64,000 nt of DNA from Carnobacterium alterfunditum DSM 5972. GTDB taxonomy: Bacteria > Bacillota > Bacilli > Lactobacillales > Carnobacteriaceae. This document shows positions 17,046 through 60,483 of this stretch, piece after piece. The notes below the pieces were generated by a model. The model was given only the letters and a program-made list of their open reading frames with translations, was not told where the DNA came from and ran no database searches. Location of the stretch: positions 2,268,190 to 2,332,189 of the forward strand of contig NZ_JQLG01000004.1 in NCBI RefSeq assembly GCF_000744115.1. Direction: 5' to 3'. The position numbers and the translations under genes are program-made. The first letter of the stretch is position 1; each line of letters starts with the position of its first letter.

Positions 17046-17259
17046 ATTGAATAACCAGCGATGAAAGAAAAAAGTAAAAATTTTATTTCTATACGAGCGA
17101 ATTTGGGATAGTGTAAGCCAAATATAGACAAAGTTTTGAAAGGCCTTCTGGAGCTGTTCGATAAAAGAGATGCTAGTTTTTAATAAACTAGAATTAGGGT
17201 GGAACCGCGATTGTATTATCGTCCCTATGCTGATAATTGTCAGCATAGGGACTTTTTTT
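17046..17259 (+). promoter_or_regulatory. Glycine T-box leader of glyQS
   Basis: GAAAGGC at 17138-17144 places the Gly codon GGC (17142-17144) in the specifier loop, opposite the AGTA motif near 17074. The T-box AGGGTGGAACCGCG is at 17196-17209. The terminator arms 17221-17232 and 17241-17252 pair perfectly, followed by seven T. Uncharged tRNA-Gly should promote readthrough. Confidence 0.95.
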
Positions 17260-17309: not shown

Positions 17310-18221
17310 ATGAAAGAAAATAGTTTAACATTTCAAGAAATCATTTTAACGTTACAAAAATATTGGTCAGATCAAGGCTGCTTGCTGCTCCAAGCTTACG
17401 ATACAGAAAAAGGGGCAGGAACGATGAGTCCCTATACATTCTTACGTGCGATTGGACCTGAACCCTGGAATGCGGCATATGTAGAGCCTTCAAGACGTCC
17501 AGCAGATGGCCGTTATGGTGAAAATCCAAACCGCTTGTTTCAACATCATCAATTTCAAGTAGTCATGAAACCTTCACCTGATGATATCCAAGAACTTTAT
17601 TTAGAAAGTCTTCGCTTATTAGGGATCGATCCATTAGAACATGATATTCGTTTTGTTGAAGACAACTGGGAAAATCCATCAATGGGTTGTGCTGGTCTAG
17701 GTTGGGAAGTTTGGTTAGATGGGATGGAAATCACTCAATTTACCTACTTCCAACAAGTTGGAGGATTAGAATGTAATCCTGTAACAAGCGAACTTACTTA
17801 CGGACTAGAACGTTTAGCTTCATACATTCAAGATGTAGATAGTGTTTATGACATTGAGTGGACGAAAGGCGTAAAATACGGTGAAATATTTATTCAACCT
17901 GAATATGAGCATTCAAAATACGCTTTTGAAAACAGCAATCAAGAATTGCTTTTGATGTTATTCAATGAATATGAAAAGGAAGCTTTAGCTCAAATTAAAG
18001 CAGGGTTAGTTCATCCAGCCTACGATTATGTTTTAAAGTGCAGCCACACGTTCAATTTATTAGATGCAAGAGGAGCAGTATCCGTCACAGAACGCGCTGG
18101 GTACTTAGCTCGCATTCGAAATATGGCACGTTCGATCGCAAAAGCTTTTGTAACCGAACGTGAGAAATTAGGTTTCCCTCTGCTTCAAAACCAATCTGTC
18201 GAAACTAAGGAGGCAAACTAA
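17310..18221 (+). CDS. glyQ: Glycyl-tRNA synthetase alpha subunit
   Basis: Catalytic class II subunit of the heterotetrameric bacterial GlyRS. 303 residues. Recognisable segments are [18 protein letters not shown] at the start, [17 protein letters not shown] (about 32-48), the [19 protein letters not shown] region, and [20 protein letters not shown] near 150-170. ATG follows AAAGGAG. Directly precedes glyS with one base between. Confidence 0.98.
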
Positions 18222-18222
18222 G

Positions 18223-20307
18223 ATGACTAAAAATCTTTTATTAGAAATCGGTTTAGAAGAAATTCCAGCTCATATCGTTACCCCAAGTAGTGAACAATTA
18301 GTACAAAAAATAGCAGCCTTTTTAAAAGAAAATCGGTTGGATCATGGAGCAGTGATCCCCTTCTCGACTCCACGAAGACTAGCTGTTATTGTCAAAGATA
18401 TCGTAGAAAAACAAGAAGATATCCAAGAATCTGTAAAAGGTCCTGCTCGAAAAATAGCTCAAGATGCTGAAGGCAATTGGAGTAAAGCTGCTATCGGGTT
18501 TGCTCGAGGACAAGGAGCAGCTACCGATGATATCTATTTCAAATCGATCAAAGATATCGAGTACGTTTACGTTGATAAATTTATCTCAGGAAAAACAGTC
18601 AATGAGATTTTAGTTGGTTTAGATAAAGTGATCACATCACTGACATTCCCAGTAAGCATGCATTGGGCAAACCATTCATTTAAATATATCCGTCCGTTCC
18701 ATTGGCTGACAGCTATGTTAGATGAAGAGGTGATCCCCTTTGAACTGCTAGATATCCAAACAGCGAATACTTCACGCGGCCACCGTTTTTTAGGGCATGA
18801 TGTAACATTTGCTGATGCTTTGGACTACGAAAAAACGTTGGAGAGTGTTTTTGTTATCGCGGATAGTGCCAAACGTAAACAAATGATCGTTACCCAAATT
18901 GAGGAGCTGACAAAGGCAAATCAATGGTCTGTTTCATTGGATGAAGAATTACTAGAAGAAGTCAACAACTTGATTGAATACCCAACTGCTTTTTATGGTT
19001 CATTTGATAAAAAATACTTAGATCTGCCAGAAGAGGTATTGATCACGTCGATGAAAGACCATCAGCGCTATTTTGGCGTGAGAGACAATAAAGGCACTAT
19101 TCTACCTTACTTTATCTCCGTTCGTAATGGAAATGCCGAACACATTGATACAGTTGCTAAAGGAAATGAGAAAGTATTGACTGCCCGTTTAGATGACGGC
19201 CGCTTTTTCTATGAAGAAGATCAAAAATTAACCATAGCTGCTTGTGTCGAACGCTTAAAACTAGTGACGTTCCATGAAAAAATCGGGTCCATTTATGAAA
19301 AAATGAACCGGGTACAAGCAATTGCCCAACTAATTGGGAAACAGGTCGGTTTGACTGCTACTGAATTAAAGGATCTAAATCGTGCATCTGAAATTTATAA
19401 ATTTGATTTGGTGACCAACATGGTCGGAGAATTTCCTGAATTACAAGGGGTCATGGGTGAAAAATACGCTTTAGCGCAAGGTGAGAATCCAGTTGTAGCT
19501 GCAGCTATTAGAGAACATTACATGCCGATTTCAAGTGAAGGAGAACTTCCACAATCGTCTGTTGGAGCTGTTTTAGCTATTGCAGATAAATTGGAAAGTG
19601 TTTTAAGTTTCTTTGCAGTTGGAATGATCCCAACTGGATCAAACGATCCATATGCCTTGAGACGTCAAACCTATGGTATTGTTCGTATTATTGAATCGAA
19701 AAATTGGATTTTTCCAATGATCTCATTGAAAGAAAATATTCTAACGGCCTCTGTTATCGCACAAAGCTCCTTGATCGAAGGTTACAAGTCAAGTGCTGCA
19801 CAAGTAGGGGATTTTACTAAAGCTCGTATCCGTCAATTATTAATGGCAGAGAGCATACGCCATGATGTAGTTGATGCAGCCTTAAGTTCTCACCAAGAAG
19901 ATTTACTAAAATTGATTGAATCTAGTCGAGTCTTGAACAGCCATGTATCAGATGCTGTATTTAAACCGACGATCGAAGCGTTGACCCGGGTCGTTAATCT
20001 AGCTAGTAAAGGTGAAGAACTGCTTGACCAAGAAAAAATAAAAGTGAATACTGACTTATTTGAAACGAAGTCTGAAAAATTATTGCATGAAGCATTTGAA
20101 GAAATCATAAAAACGATAGACGAAAGTGATAGTGCTAAAAACTATGTAGCATTTGAGCAGTTGCAACCATTGATTGAGGAATTTTTCAATGAAAATATGG
20201 TCATGACTGACAATGAGGCCATTCGCAATAACCGCTTAGCTTTATTGATGGAGATTTCTAATTTCGTTTTATCTTTTGCTAGTGTAGACAAATTAGTAGT
20301 TAAGTAA
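18223..20307 (+). CDS. glyS: Glycyl-tRNA synthetase beta subunit
   Basis: tRNA-binding partner of GlyQ. 694 residues, full length. [15 protein letters not shown] opens the protein, GPARKIA and STPRRLAV follow in the first 90 residues, and [13 protein letters not shown] lies near 280. An HD-like middle region and the C-terminal anticodon-binding DALR-type domain follow. AAGGAGG precedes ATG. Closed by the terminator at 20334. Confidence 0.98.
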
Positions 20308-44512: not shown

Positions 44513-44537
44513 CAACAGTGACAGAAATATAAAATAT

Positions 44538-45270
<733 letters not shown>

Positions 45271-56611: not shown

Positions 56612-57310
56612 ATGGAATGGAATTATCAAGGGGATAGAGGACCGGAAAATTGGAACACGATTTGTTCAGCTTTTCATCAAGCAGAATCAGAAAGTTTACA
56701 ATCACCGATCGCATTAGATGATGATCAAATAACGGCAACGATCTCACAGCAATCGCTGATATTTGACTACAATAAAACGTTGTTTGAATCATCTTTTTTT
56801 AATCACACCGTACATTTATCGCCAAAAACAAATGAGAAACTGAATACCGTTATATTTGATCACAAAAGATATTTTTTAGAAGATCTGCATTTTCATTTAC
56901 CGAGCGAGCATGAGATCAATCATGAATCCTTTCCTTTAGAATTTCATCTTGTCCATCGTTCTGTAAAAAATGAGCTTCTTGTTGTAGGCGTCACAGTACT
57001 GCCTTCTGAACGGCCAATGAATACGGTATTTGCTGCCGTAGATGAAAGAGCTCTGCATCCGCGTGTAGCAGGAAGAGGACTGACTGTTCCGATTGAATTA
57101 ACAAGGCTTTTGCCGGAAAATAAACAATTCTATCATTACACAGGCTCATTGACTACACCTCCGACTTTAGGACCAGTCGAGTGGATCGTATTCAGCCAGC
57201 AAACATTTATGCGTCAAGGTTTGCTTCAAGCCTTTAAAAAGACTGTCGGCAAAACAAATAGACCTTTGCAACTTATAATGAATAGACCTATTTACTTATC
57301 AAACAACTAA
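56612..57310 (+). CDS. Alpha-class carbonic anhydrase, no signal peptide
   Basis: Interconverts CO2 and bicarbonate. 232 residues. QSPIAL (about 30-35), LHFHLPSEHEI with the first two zinc His (about 91-101), EFHLVHR with the third, and GSLTTPPTLGPVEWIVF with the Thr gate are all present, so the site looks intact. The protein begins MEWNYQGDRGPENW, i.e. directly with the family core and no signal peptide, so it is predicted cytoplasmic. AGGAGGGG precedes ATG; TATAAT at 56575-56580 is a likely -10. Confidence 0.92.
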   Translation: MEWNYQGDRGPENWNTICSAFHQAESESLQSPIALDDDQITATISQQSLIFDYNKTLFESSFFNHTVHLSPKTNEKLNTVIFDHKRYFLEDLHFHLPSEHEINHESFPLEFHLVHRSVKNELLVVGVTVLPSERPMNTVFAAVDERALHPRVAGRGLTVPIELTRLLPENKQFYHYTGSLTTPPTLGPVEWIVFSQQTFMRQGLLQAFKKTVGKTNRPLQLIMNRPIYLSNN

Positions 57311-57336
57311 ATTATAATTAAATTCTCATTTAAAGC

Positions 57337-57365
57337 TTGACACACAAACGAACAACTAGTAAGAT
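57337..57365 (+). promoter_or_regulatory. Promoter of the trpXYZ leader
   Basis: TTGACA (57337-57342), 17-bp spacer, TAAGAT (57360-57365). Start of transcription near 57372, giving a 5' UTR of about 375 nt. Confidence 0.82.
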
Positions 57366-57397
57366 CACTGTAATAGAAAAATAACAAAGGAGTTCTT

Positions 57398-57463
57398 ATG
57401 ATGCTAATTAACTTTTCTTATAATGTACAATTGAATAGCAGTTGGCAAAGCCAAGATAGATAG
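57398..57463 (+). CDS. Putative 21-aa leader peptide with one Trp codon
   Basis: ATG at 57398 lies five bases after AAAGGAG (57386-57392), an excellent site. The peptide starts MMLINFSYN and ends SSWQSQDR; the only Trp codon is TGG at 57443-57445. The stop TAG (57461-57463) shares its last base with the 5' arm of the next hairpin. Trp codon placement before competing hairpins and a Trp transporter operon suggests an attenuation leader peptide. Too short for gene finders. Confidence 0.7.
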   Translation: MMLINFSYNVQLNSSWQSQDR

Positions 57464-57604
57464 GTTGATCCATGAGAACGCTCATAGATGCAACCTTCAG
57501 TATACTGAATGTCTGTATCTATGTTGGTTTATTTGAAGACAAAATAGACTTCTGATCCACATAGAGAGAATATTTGATTCTATTTCTATGTGGATTTTGT
57601 TTTG
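57463..57604 (+). promoter_or_regulatory. Putative transcription attenuator of trpXYZ
   Basis: Five segments can pair in two exclusive ways. A 57463-57476, B 57481-57495, C 57514-57527, D 57554-57565, E 57585-57595. A-B: GGTTG/CAACC, ATC/GAT, ATGAG/CTCAT, loop AACG. B-C: 57483-57492 with 57514-57523 (10 bp, one G-U). C-D: about 9 bp with one bulge. D-E: perfect 11 bp plus a T-rich tail, a terminator. A-B with C-D gives readthrough; B-C with D-E gives termination. Confidence 0.65.
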
Positions 57605-57607
57605 CAA

Positions 57608-57647
57608 AAAACAGCTCCCACGTATCTTTTGTGGCAGCTGTTTTTTT
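57608..57647 (+). terminator. Second terminator-like hairpin in the trpXYZ leader
   Basis: AACAGCT 57610-57616 and CCAC 57618-57621 pair with GTGG 57631-57634 and AGCTGTT 57636-57642, one C-C mismatch, then seven T. Its being upstream of trpX means it must be bypassed or conditional. Confidence 0.8.
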
Positions 57648-57674
57648 ATTGATCTAATTTAAGAGGTGTGGGAA

Positions 57675-57704
57675 ATGGAAAAGAAGCGATGGCGATTTTA
57701 TTGA
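57675..57704 (+). CDS. Putative 9-aa upstream ORF containing Trp
   Basis: ATG 57675 follows AAGAGGTG (57661-57668). It encodes MEKKRWRFY and stops at TGA 57702-57704, 43 nt before trpX. It lies after both terminator hairpins, so it could only influence translation of trpX or later steps. Very short; could be chance. Confidence 0.35.
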   Translation: MEKKRWRFY

Positions 57705-57747
57705 AAAAATCTAACAAAAATCAATAATTACTGGGGGATAAAAAGAA

Positions 57748-58734
57748 ATGAAAAAAATGATTGGGTTCATTATTGGTTTGACGGCAATTTTAACGGTTGC
57801 ATTTTTTACTTCTTCAAATGAAATAGAAACGATGAAAAAAGCTAAACCAATGGTTGGCATTTTACAACTCACTAGTCATCCAGCGTTAGATCTTATTTAT
57901 CAAGGAACGGTAGATGCATTAAATGACGCTGGATATATTGACGGAGAAACAATGACGTTAGATTTTCAAAATGCTCAAGGAGATCAAAGTAATCTAAACT
58001 CGATGAGTACTCGCTTCGTCAGCAGAGGGGCAGCCGTTATGGTTGGTATTGCTACTCCTTCCGCACAAGCATTGGCTAATAGCTCACAAGAAATACCGAT
58101 CGTGTTAGGCGCAGTCACTGACCCTGAAGGATCAGGATTAGTTGAAAGTAATGAAGCCCCTGGGGGAAATATAACTGGTGTGAGTGATTTAACACCGATA
58201 AAAGAACAATTTTCATTGATCAAAGAGATTCTTCCAGAAGCTCAAACGATTGGTATTTTGTATTCATCTAGTGAAGATAATTCAATTGTTCAAGCGGATC
58301 AAGCTATTGAGATCGCGAAAGAAATGGGACTGGATATTGAAGTGATGACTATTTCATCTACAAATGATGTTTCACAAGTTGGAGCTACATTAGCTTCACA
58401 AGTAGATGCTATCTGGGTACCTACCGATAATACAGTAGCTAGCGCGATGACGACATTGGTTTCTGCTGCTGATTCAAACGGGATACCTATTTTTCCAGCT
58501 GTAGATACGATGGTTGAAGAAGGTGGACTAGCTACTGTTGGATTAGATCAATATGAATTAGGTCGGTTAACAGGAGAAATGGTTGCGGCTATTTTAAACG
58601 GCGAGTCAGATCCAGCAACGACACCTATTCGTTATTTAGATGAAGGGGAAATCATTATAAATCAAGAGAAAGCCAAACAACTTGGTATTACTATCCCGAC
58701 ACAACTATTAGAACAAGCGAAACAAGCAGAATAA
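57748..58734 (+). CDS. trpX: Tryptophan ABC transporter substrate-binding protein (TrpX family)
   Basis: 328 residues with the ABC_sub_bind fold. SHPALDLIYQGTVDALNDAGY (landmark SHPALDLIYQG, about 43-53) is the family signature, with GNITGVSDLTPI and VDTMVEEGGLATVGLDQYELG later. An N-terminal hydrophobic segment (about 5-21) has no Cys, so there is no lipobox; it probably stays membrane-anchored. GGGGG precedes ATG. First gene of trpX-trpY-trpZ. Substrate is by family; the leader's Trp codon agrees. Confidence 0.88.
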   Translation: MKKMIGFIIGLTAILTVAFFTSSNEIETMKKAKPMVGILQLTSHPALDLIYQGTVDALNDAGYIDGETMTLDFQNAQGDQSNLNSMSTRFVSRGAAVMVGIATPSAQALANSSQEIPIVLGAVTDPEGSGLVESNEAPGGNITGVSDLTPIKEQFSLIKEILPEAQTIGILYSSSEDNSIVQADQAIEIAKEMGLDIEVMTISSTNDVSQVGATLASQVDAIWVPTDNTVASAMTTLVSAADSNGIPIFPAVDTMVEEGGLATVGLDQYELGRLTGEMVAAILNGESDPATTPIRYLDEGEIIINQEKAKQLGITIPTQLLEQAKQAE

Positions 58735-58766: not shown

Positions 58767-59657
58767 ATGGATTTAATTGTTACCGCTACAGCACAAGGGT
58801 TATTGTGGGGAATGATGGCTTTAGGCATTTTTATTACTTATCGTATTTTAGATTTACCGGACATGACTGCAGAAGGTTCTTTTCCTTTAGGAGCGGCTGT
58901 ATGTGCTCAACTCATTATTTCAGGGGTTCATCCTTTAACTGCAACAGCTATTGCTTTTGTAATAGGAGCTTTGGCTGGAGCAGTTACTGGATTCCTGATC
59001 ACAAAAGCACACATTCCAGGTTTATTAGCTGGAATATTGACCATGACCGGACTGTATTCAATAAATTTAAGGGTCATGAGTCGTGCTAATTTAAGTTTAC
59101 TCGGAGAAGCAAAGTTAACAGATTTTTTCACTCGATTTAACTTGCCAAGCCAATTTGATACCATTTTTATGGGAATCGTGCTTGTGTCTAGTCTGATTGT
59201 GTTACTTGTTTTATTCTTTAAAACCGAACTTGGTCAAGCTGTTATCGCTACTGGAGATAATGAAAAAATGGCACGTTCATTAGGGATCTCTACAAATCAA
59301 ACGAAAATATTAGGTCTGATGCTTTCAAATGGTTTGATTTCTGCTGCGGGCGCTTTGATTGCTCAAGATAATGGTTATGCTGATATCAGTATGGGTATAG
59401 GCACGATTGTTATCGGCTTAGCATCAGTTATTATTGGAGAAGTTATTTTTGGAAACTTATCTTTTGTTAATCGCCTTATATGTGTCATCTTAGGAGCCAT
59501 CATATACCGGTTGATCATCATGTTTGTATTATTAATGGGATTACAACCGAATGACTTGAAACTTATCTCAGCTGTCATTTTAGCGGTATTTCTTGCATTA
59601 CCTAGTATCCGTACTCGATTTAATTTGAATTTCTTCCAAAAAAAGGAGTTGTTGTAA
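58767..59657 (+). CDS. trpY: Tryptophan ABC transporter permease (TrpY family)
   Basis: 296 residues and about eight or nine membrane helices of the branched-chain-type permease fold. Landmarks are LLWGMMALGIFITYRILDLPDMTAEGSF (seen as TYRILDLPDMTAEGSFPLG, about 25-43), GLLAGILTMTGLYSIN and the NGLISAAGALIAQDNGYADISMG cytoplasmic coupling region. GGAGG precedes ATG. Lies 33 nt after trpX and one base before trpZ. Confidence 0.88.
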   Translation: MDLIVTATAQGLLWGMMALGIFITYRILDLPDMTAEGSFPLGAAVCAQLIISGVHPLTATAIAFVIGALAGAVTGFLITKAHIPGLLAGILTMTGLYSINLRVMSRANLSLLGEAKLTDFFTRFNLPSQFDTIFMGIVLVSSLIVLLVLFFKTELGQAVIATGDNEKMARSLGISTNQTKILGLMLSNGLISAAGALIAQDNGYADISMGIGTIVIGLASVIIGEVIFGNLSFVNRLICVILGAIIYRLIIMFVLLMGLQPNDLKLISAVILAVFLALPSIRTRFNLNFFQKKELL

Positions 59658-59658
59658 T

Positions 59659-60483
59659 ATGAGTTCTACACCCGTTCTGATTTTAAAAGGAATCACTAAA
59701 CAATTTAATAAAGGGACCGCCAATCAAAATACGGTCTTAAACCAGTTAAGCTTAGAAGTAGAAAAAGGGGATTTTATTACTATCATTGGAGGTAATGGAG
59801 CTGGTAAGTCGACTTTACTGAATAGTATTGCAGGAAATTTTATGATCGATCAAGGAACTATCATGCTTGGAAATAGAGATTTGACTACCTTGAAAGAAGA
59901 AAAACGAGCCGGATTTATCGGACGCGTTTTTCAAGATCCAGTAATGGGAACAGCGCCTCGAATGACTGTAGGTGAAAACTTGGCTATTGCTTATCGAAGG
60001 GGGAAAAAACGTTCTCTACGAAAAGGGACGACCGATAAAGAACGTGAATATTTCAAAAATAGTTTACTTGAATTAGGCTTAGGATTAGAGGATCGTTTAG
60101 ACAGCGAAATGGGATTGTTATCTGGTGGACAACGACAAGCTATTGCTCTTTTAATGGCTACTATGAATAAACCAGAACTCTTATTGTTAGATGAGCATAC
60201 TGCAGCCCTAGATCCTAAAACAGCTAAAATTGTTTTAGAAATCACTCAAAAACGAATCGAACAAGAAGAATTGACTGCTTTAATGATTACTCATAATATG
60301 AATGATGCATTAAAATACGGCAATCGATTGATCATGCTAGATGCCGGACAAGTTATTGTAGATATATCTGGCGAGGAGAAAAAGAACTTAACAGTTGCAG
60401 ATGTATTGGTTCTTTTTCAAACAGCTACGGATGAAGAAAATGGAGCTGGCCAATTACCAGATGAACTTTTATTAAGTCGCTAA
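59659..60483 (+). CDS. trpZ: Tryptophan ABC transporter ATP-binding protein (TrpZ family)
   Basis: 274 residues. Walker A GGNGAGKST (about 44-52), signature LLSGGQRQAIALL, Walker B LLLLDEHTAALD, and MITHNM H-loop. The Walker-B tail EHTAALD is typical of this transporter family. Third gene of the operon; the stop is followed by a terminator at 60504. AAAGGAG precedes ATG. Confidence 0.9.
   Translation: MSSTPVLILKGITKQFNKGTANQNTVLNQLSLEVEKGDFITIIGGNGAGKSTLLNSIAGNFMIDQGTIMLGNRDLTTLKEEKRAGFIGRVFQDPVMGTAPRMTVGENLAIAYRRGKKRSLRKGTTDKEREYFKNSLLELGLGLEDRLDSEMGLLSGGQRQAIALLMATMNKPELLLLDEHTAALDPKTAKIVLEITQKRIEQEELTALMITHNMNDALKYGNRLIMLDAGQVIVDISGEEKKNLTVADVLVLFQTATDEENGAGQLPDELLLSR

Follow-up and report, generated by a model that had tools for sequence, protein, structure and literature searches.

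Attenuators of the classical trp leader type are known from Proteobacteria, and the his operon attenuator of enteric bacteria is a six-segment domino in which helices AB, CD and EF alternate with BC and DE, ending in one terminator. Among Corynebacterium and Streptomyces, trp leaders carry Trp codons in a short ORF, with antiterminator and terminator hairpins situated before the trp genes (PMC1262725). Histidine leader attenuators of Firmicutes have been described in which leader peptides take the place of T-boxes (PMC9413887, PMC2965389); these differ from the leader described here in amino acid and genes, and the accessible text of these reports contains no Trp case from Lactobacillales. In Streptococcus, trpX is reported to be preceded by a Trp T-box (PMC9382623), which has the same operon, the same signal (tRNA-Trp charging) and the same predicted outcome as the present leader but, unlike a leader-peptide attenuator, binds the tRNA directly in the leader RNA.

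The trpB motif (SRC-39-1; Rfam RF04312), published in 2024, was rated a strong riboswitch candidate, with no ligand assigned. It has more than 900 members among Firmicutes and Fusobacteria, and its usual downstream gene encodes an uncharacterised ABC transporter similar to those for amino acids (PMC11109978). It consists of two hairpins and an expression platform, and a classical attenuator remained an alternative for its authors (PMC11109978). The closest precedent is the ilvB-II motif, a former riboswitch candidate that was shown to be an attenuator with an upstream ORF (PMC10272879, PMC11109978), although that case concerns branched-chain amino acids and Corynebacterium.

The trpXYZ leader and its relation to RF04312

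The DNA analysed (the window) is a stretch of 64,000 nucleotides from Carnobacterium alterfunditum DSM 5972. The following features were identified in and behind the trpXYZ leader, with the RNA segments lying in the order Z-A-B-C-D-E-F5'-F3' (duplex energies in kcal/mol):

57337–57365, + strand: putative sigma-70-type promoter TTGACA-17-TAAGAT (consensus scan)
57386–57392, + strand: Shine-Dalgarno (SD) sequence AAAGGAG of leader ORF 1 (read from the sequence)
57398–57463, + strand: leader ORF 1, 21 codons, MMLINFSYNVQLNSSWQSQDR* (sequence; counterparts in relatives)
57443–57445, + strand: Trp codon, proposed starvation stall site (sequence; distance to segment A similar in relatives)
57449–57461, + strand: segment Z, the last leader codons, complementary to C (duplex −17.0; co-variation)
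57461–57476, + strand: segment A, complementary to B and overlapping the leader stop codon (duplex −16.4; own-versus-foreign test)
57481–57497, + strand: segment B, partner of A or C (duplexes; RF04312 alignment; own-versus-foreign test)
57515–57529, + strand: segment C, partner of Z, B or D (duplexes; own-versus-foreign test; covariation)
57554–57571, + strand: segment D, 5' arm of terminator 1 and partner of C when antiterminated (duplexes; own-versus-foreign test)
57577–57604, + strand: segment E, 3' arm and U-rich tail of terminator 1, possible partner of F5' (duplexes; own-versus-foreign test)
57606–57622, + strand: segment F5', 5' arm of terminator 2, partner of E or F3' (duplexes; own-versus-foreign test)
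57630–57646, + strand: segment F3', 3' arm and U-tract of terminator 2 (sequence; duplex)
57675–57704, + strand: second small Trp ORF, MEKKRWRFY*, with its SD region at 57662–57672 (similar ORFs in relatives)
57748–58734, + strand: trpX, tryptophan ABC transporter substrate-binding protein (curated equivalog model NF041285, 455.7 bits against a cut-off of 390)
58767–59657, + strand: trpY, ABC permease (general permease matches below cut-offs; operon position)
59659–60483, + strand: trpZ, ABC ATP-binding protein (general ATPase matches below cut-offs; operon position)

The original prediction had placed a leader-peptide attenuator here, and checking of the sequence located its 21-codon ORF, which has one Trp codon behind a good ribosome site, as well as all five of its segments, A to E, at the positions drawn. 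Leader ORF 1 holds no more than one Trp codon in the window and in its close relatives. The promoter had been called strong; it is a putative one that matches the consensus at 10 of 12 positions, and a scan of 1.4 kb gave eight promoter-like sites where shuffles gave 4.5 ± 2.4. Duplex energies in the window were −16.4 (A:B), −13.0 (B:C), −10.4 (C:D) and −20.1 kcal/mol (D:E), with −17.0 for Z:C and −10.5 for E:F5', and the leader (57366–57660) was found to fold far more stably than 200 dinucleotide shuffles (z −6.35). The match to RF04312, the Z:C pairing, terminator 2 with its E:F5' pairing and the second Trp ORF are additions to the original account.

Comparison of the window leader with RF04312 gave 46.9 bits (E 8e-6; gathering score 59), with model positions 1–107 aligned over the full length. 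The leader is thus a divergent relative of RF04312 that lies below membership by the gathering rule of Rfam. It has the RF04312 architecture, a P1 hairpin followed by an intrinsic terminator with trpX downstream; shared between the two are P1 (B:C), the terminator (D:E) and the kinds of genes controlled (ABC transporter, trpB). The model starts at B and ends after terminator 1, so that the leader ORF, Z and A fall outside it. Other weak Rfam matches (Enterococcus sRNA 2410 at 22.5 bits, MicC, FsrA, rliE, BTnc049 and snoR101) were judged to be chance or partial overlap.

Relatives of RF04312 were sought among Lactobacillales and in a draw of genomes from the phylum, a sample to which the fusobacterial members of the published family are external. 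Of 198 Lactobacillales genomes from 54 genera, 114 (in 37 genera) had matches with E ≤0.001, and 41 contained a match above the gathering cut-off. Five of the 299 genomes sampled from the phylum had a match, two of these belonging to Lactobacillales; the three matches outside the order (L052–L054) have no such leader and are probably false.

Leader ORFs and the genes behind them

All 134 RF04312 matches in Lactobacillales were oriented and their upstream DNA was read for the best ORF with an SD sequence and ATG start, ending at most 40 bases before the motif and with Trp within its last 12 codons. Such a Trp leader ORF was found by script in 115 of the 134, and one more with a GTG start (L037) brings this to 116, while dinucleotide-shuffled upstream DNA gave a mean of 1.7 and a maximum of 6 per 134 over 100 rounds. 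Common Trp tails were WQNWRR, WQTWRR, WQSQDR, WRNWRR and WQGQ. A further 13 of the 134 were found to carry, at the same place, a leader ORF with Phe/Tyr codons (typical tail ...FYFSYFR*). Five matches of 39–48 bits (L077, L096, L102, L134 and L135) have neither kind of leader; these were kept in the count of 134 and excluded from the pairing tests. Conservation of the ORF and its Trp codon in orthologous leaders had been set as a test of the attenuator, and a Trp or Phe/Tyr leader ORF accompanies 129 of the 134 matches.

These ORFs bear on the first suggestion made by the discoverers of RF04312, that its RNA binds a metabolite (tryptophan or another aromatic compound) directly. This agrees with PMC11109978, where the motif, with its two hairpins and expression platform, is placed among the strong riboswitch candidates. 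Upstream of the published model, however, 129 of 134 loci hold an ORF that has its own SD and start and stop codons and contains aromatic codons, and the Trp codons are exchanged for Phe/Tyr codons at the same place in the RNA, for which a direct ligand sensor offers no evident reason. The conserved core is, moreover, accounted for by mutually exclusive helices, and a metabolite riboswitch is therefore considered extremely improbable. An attenuator governed by a leader peptide would provide a testable mechanism for this orphan candidate, at least for its members in Lactobacillales, and would give the search for its ligand a new direction.

Genes downstream of the leaders were assigned by clusters, with a profile scan of the cluster representatives. 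Behind the 116 Trp leaders were 107 TrpX-type genes, five trpB genes, one TrpP-like gene (L123), one reverse-transcriptase ORF (L021) and two loci without a called gene (L024, L043), and behind the 13 Phe/Tyr leaders were ten genes for TrpX-like proteins and three aroE genes. The identity of the leader codons thus follows the downstream gene. Eight of the proteins behind Phe/Tyr leaders were placed in a quick tree as one clade (SH-aLRT 99), with L087 and L132 on long branches. Four such proteins that were scanned fell short of the TrpX model cut-off (390 bits) with scores of 273–343, against 454–456 for two proteins behind Trp leaders. Both kinds of leader were found together in seven genomes (G010, G084, G094, G096, G104, G125 and G143). 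Three of the TrpX-like proteins behind Phe/Tyr leaders (L104:228-1211, L118:700-1659 and L136:260-1219) are likely to serve as Phe/Tyr rather than Trp transporters, and the leader codons would in this way predict the substrate of a transporter clade.

By eye, these last three proteins appear lipoprotein-like. The reverse-transcriptase ORF (L021:2047-3105), of the group II intron type by eye, follows a Trp leader in the place where trpX is expected. L024 and L043 each hold a complete Trp attenuator, behind which the DNA obtained has no called gene; the closely similar L026 has trpB at this place.

RNA pairings and the proposed attenuator

Pairing was tested by comparing the fit of each segment to its own partner with its fit to partners from other loci, for which the 129 leader-bearing loci were thinned to 91 (<88% identity). 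The first pass comprised 78 of these, 13 having failed the first segment finder, with L025 left in with a wrong ORF. The z scores obtained were −17.1 (A:B), −4.5 (B:C), −11.3 (Z:C), −5.2 (C:D) and −23.4 (D:E), and pairs not expected to form gave +2.8 to −3.3. Among the nine Phe/Tyr loci of this pass, C:D had no own advantage (z +0.6) and B:C had little (z −1.5).

The test was repeated with a diverged set of 35 loci (protein identity <60%), from which L095, L111 and loci without a TrpX-type next gene were excluded. Here, z scores were −12.2 (A:B), −8.4 (B:C), −8.3 (Z:C), −3.8 (C:D) and −16.1 (D:E), and with 23 loci −6.7 (E:F5') and −14.4 (F5':F3'). Thirteen control pairs gave −3.4 (Z:E), −2.3 (Z:B), −2.2 (A:E) and −1.9 to +1.6 for the others, and the signs of the pairings persisted in 13 loci of <50% identity (eight for F). 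The four pairings originally drawn (A:B, B:C, C:D and D:E) are thus better fitted by own than by foreign partners in relatives, C:D least so.

Covariation was examined in an alignment of 59 sequences of the 90 stretches listed. Cells changed on both sides numbered 65 for Z:C (21.7 in shuffles), 39 for B:C (15.0) and 125 for A:B and Z:C jointly (37.7). Nine Z:C pairs had changes on both sides, a number reached by 22 of 500 shuffles, and versions of the helix slid along the alignment reached up to 61 cells and 10 pairs, so these double-change measures are weak. Clear support for Z:C was obtained from the proportion of its cells that were paired (74.7%, against 37–43% when slid) and from its covariation score (0.296, against at most 0.160).

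Switching was investigated by computing the probability of C:D before E is made, with ribosome-covered bases blocked, for a ribosome stalled at the Trp codon, a ribosome at the stop codon and an untranslated leader. A second segment finder placed all 91 loci, L095 and L111 being given a wrong terminator; both are in the 91-locus set and L111 is in the 90-locus set. Over 90 loci, the mean probability of C:D was 0.58 stalled, 0.25 at the stop codon and 0.27 untranslated. Shuffling of A changed the stalled mean to 0.15, that of Z the untranslated mean to 0.48 and that of B the stop mean to 0.60. When the ribosome footprint was varied (10, 12, 14 or 16 bases), the mean stayed at 0.52–0.59 for the stalled state and at 0.25–0.28 for the stop codon. 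For the window, the values were 0.665, 0.017 and 0.093, respectively. The stalled value exceeded that at the stop codon in 74 of 91 loci (17 failing) and the untranslated value in 80 of 91 (11 failing). Terminator 1 is the favoured equilibrium structure in all three states (mean probability of D:E 0.89–0.90), so the switch must be kinetic, acting during transcription.

An ORF with aromatic codons, mutually exclusive C:D and D:E helices and stall-dependent C:D release were thus all found in silico. The ORF, its Trp or Phe/Tyr codons, the own-partner fit of seven pairings and the behaviour of C:D in the three states were computed directly, and they point, with high confidence, to a ribosome-mediated transcription attenuator before trpXYZ that would sense the charging of tRNA-Trp. 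Points that count against it are the single Trp codon of the window and its close relatives, the loci that break the expected order of the three states, the dominance of D:E at equilibrium, the poor fit of C:D and B:C in the Phe/Tyr loci, the scores of the control pairs Z:E, Z:B and A:E, the loci in which F was not found, and the hits and trpX loci that lack a leader. From the computed features we infer stalling, termination and their coupling in the cell as follows. When Trp is plentiful, a ribosome at the leader stop codon would cover Z and A, such that B:C, D:E (terminator 1) and F5':F3' (terminator 2) form and transcription stops. When the leader is not translated, Z:C would form around the A:B hairpin, making C unavailable and allowing both terminators to form; the untranslated leader should therefore stay off because Z holds C. 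When the ribosome stalls at the Trp codon it would cover Z and leave A free, so that A:B forms and C is released to D, with C:D in turn releasing E to F5' and the polymerase passing both terminators into trpXYZ. The part of the original prediction that a stall gives A:B with C:D and arrival at the stop codon gives B:C with D:E is supported by these computations; its assumption that C:D suffices for expression is not, because a second terminator follows.

Terminator 2 (57606–57646; −18.7 kcal/mol) has an F-like counterpart after terminator 1 in 55 of 89 loci (L095 and L111 left out), with none found by script in the other 34. Across the 55 loci, E fitted its own F5' with −10.87 against −7.69 for foreign ones (z −10.3). 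Control z scores were −0.9 (C:F5'), −0.9 (B:F5'), −0.2 (A:F5'), +1.4 (Z:F5'), −0.1 (E:F3') and −2.8 (D:F3'), with D:F5', A:F3' and B:F3' within 1.4. The mean probability of E:F5' was 0.66 when C holds D and 0.23 otherwise; released E should therefore open the second terminator too.

The stability of terminator 2, its closed state in the free fold of the window and a weak promoter-like match at 57701–57728 would also suit an unconditional terminator, with trpX transcribed from a later promoter or by leakage and the attenuator affecting a short RNA alone. This is regarded as unlikely, as the preference of E for its own F5' holds both in the 55 loci and in the 23 diverged loci (z −10.3 and −6.7), and the 34 of 89 loci in which F was not found indicate an attenuator that has no universal need for it.

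TnaC is an arrest peptide that stalls the ribosome with free tryptophan. By analogy, a nascent WQxW peptide together with free tryptophan could stall the ribosome here, making high Trp the signal. Conservation of the tails beyond the aromatic residues, as in WQNWRR and in the LN pair before the core, would fit such a peptide, but the Z:C pairing may already account for a large part of why the last codons are conserved, and the Phe/Tyr versions keep the place and not the residues. Uptake and synthesis genes should, in addition, be induced by shortage. This places an arrest peptide among the very improbable readings, and sensing of tRNA charging is preferred.

The second Trp ORF belongs to a wider group. 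An ORF with SD, ATG and Trp was found between terminator 1 and the gene in 25 of the 72 loci where this interval measures 70 bases or more, against a mean of 3.0 and a maximum of 7 in letter shuffles. These ORFs fall into two families, f6 and the window's own f1, and KRWR and SDWDW are examples of their cores. A structure that would explain the second peptide by sequestration of the trpX SD was sought by eye and not found.

The short Trp-codon leader probably lets many lactic acid bacteria sense a shortage of tryptophan and switch on its uptake. The balance of evidence leans slightly towards a fuller scheme in which one peptide drives an eight-segment domino that opens two tandem terminators, is closed when untranslated and is recoded between Trp and Phe/Tyr with transporter specificity, the second Trp peptide adding a gate in two families, one of them that of the window. 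Such a leader would be a natural example of a single peptide controlling two terminators in series, where the his operon attenuator has one. While classical trp leaders hold double or triple Trp codons, those described here hold mostly one or two and lie mostly before a transporter, and Z:C and E:F5' are additions to the classical arrangement as given in the accessible reports. The kind of mechanism is known; new are a codon change that goes with the gene family, the helix that keeps the untranslated leader off and the two-terminator domino. In the mostly open literature searched, the trpB motif is named in one paper and RF04312 by accession in none, and the matches listed contain no earlier account of a leader peptide with Trp codons before trpX.

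T-boxes and Trp leaders at named trpX loci

A search of the leader with the Rfam T-box model (RF00230) gave no match at the gathering score, nor up to E 5 in 57290–57800, in agreement with the original statement that no T-box precedes trpXYZ here. It had also been stated that trpXYZ is mostly T-box regulated in Lactobacillales. Loci with a named trpX were chosen by the protein alone, the best 80 of 582 confirmed ones being kept, a choice that favours near relatives of the TrpX of the window. Motifs learned from the first set were searched in 900 bases upstream (SD ≥4), a search run without a shuffle control.

Among these best 80 of 582, all 12 Streptococcus loci had a T-box sequence and none had a Trp leader, whereas none of the 68 others had a T-box sequence and 62 had a Trp leader (61 by script and L157, Dellaglioa algida, by eye). 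The six remaining without a leader were L145, L182, L190, L199, L200 and L212. Rfam confirmed the T-box in 11 of 12 Streptococcus loci and in none of eight others (20 of the 80 checked). The generalisation does not hold for the best 80 of 582, as T-boxes were confined to Streptococcus, which suggests that a Trp leader and not a T-box precedes trpX in most sampled Lactobacillales outside that genus. In a T-box survey of 2008, Trp T-boxes are entered in front of ABC transporters for three species columns, with taxa that are not assignable from its accessible text (PMC2494555), and these count against a clean split between Trp leaders and T-boxes.

In a quick tree, TrpX proteins of Streptococcus T-box loci were sister to the Trp-leader protein of L022 and lay inside the Trp-leader group, a position suggesting that a T-box replaced the leader in Streptococcus. 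Trp-leader loci L022 and L023 come from genomes of group f3/g8; they may bear on the reported failure to identify a T-box before trpX of S. pyogenes (PMC9382623). A GC-rich Trp leader was also identified before trpX in Bifidobacterium mongoliense (L204:2050-2250), in which B, C and a shorter A were recognisable by eye. Its TrpX is nested among Lactobacillales Trp-leader proteins, which suggests transfer from Lactobacillales.

Elsewhere in the window, T-boxes were identified at 44–253, before a hisS-like gene (325–1650), and at 17052–17229, before a glyQS-like pair (17310–20307), the genes being named by eye. A PyrR binding site was identified with Rfam at 44534–44661.
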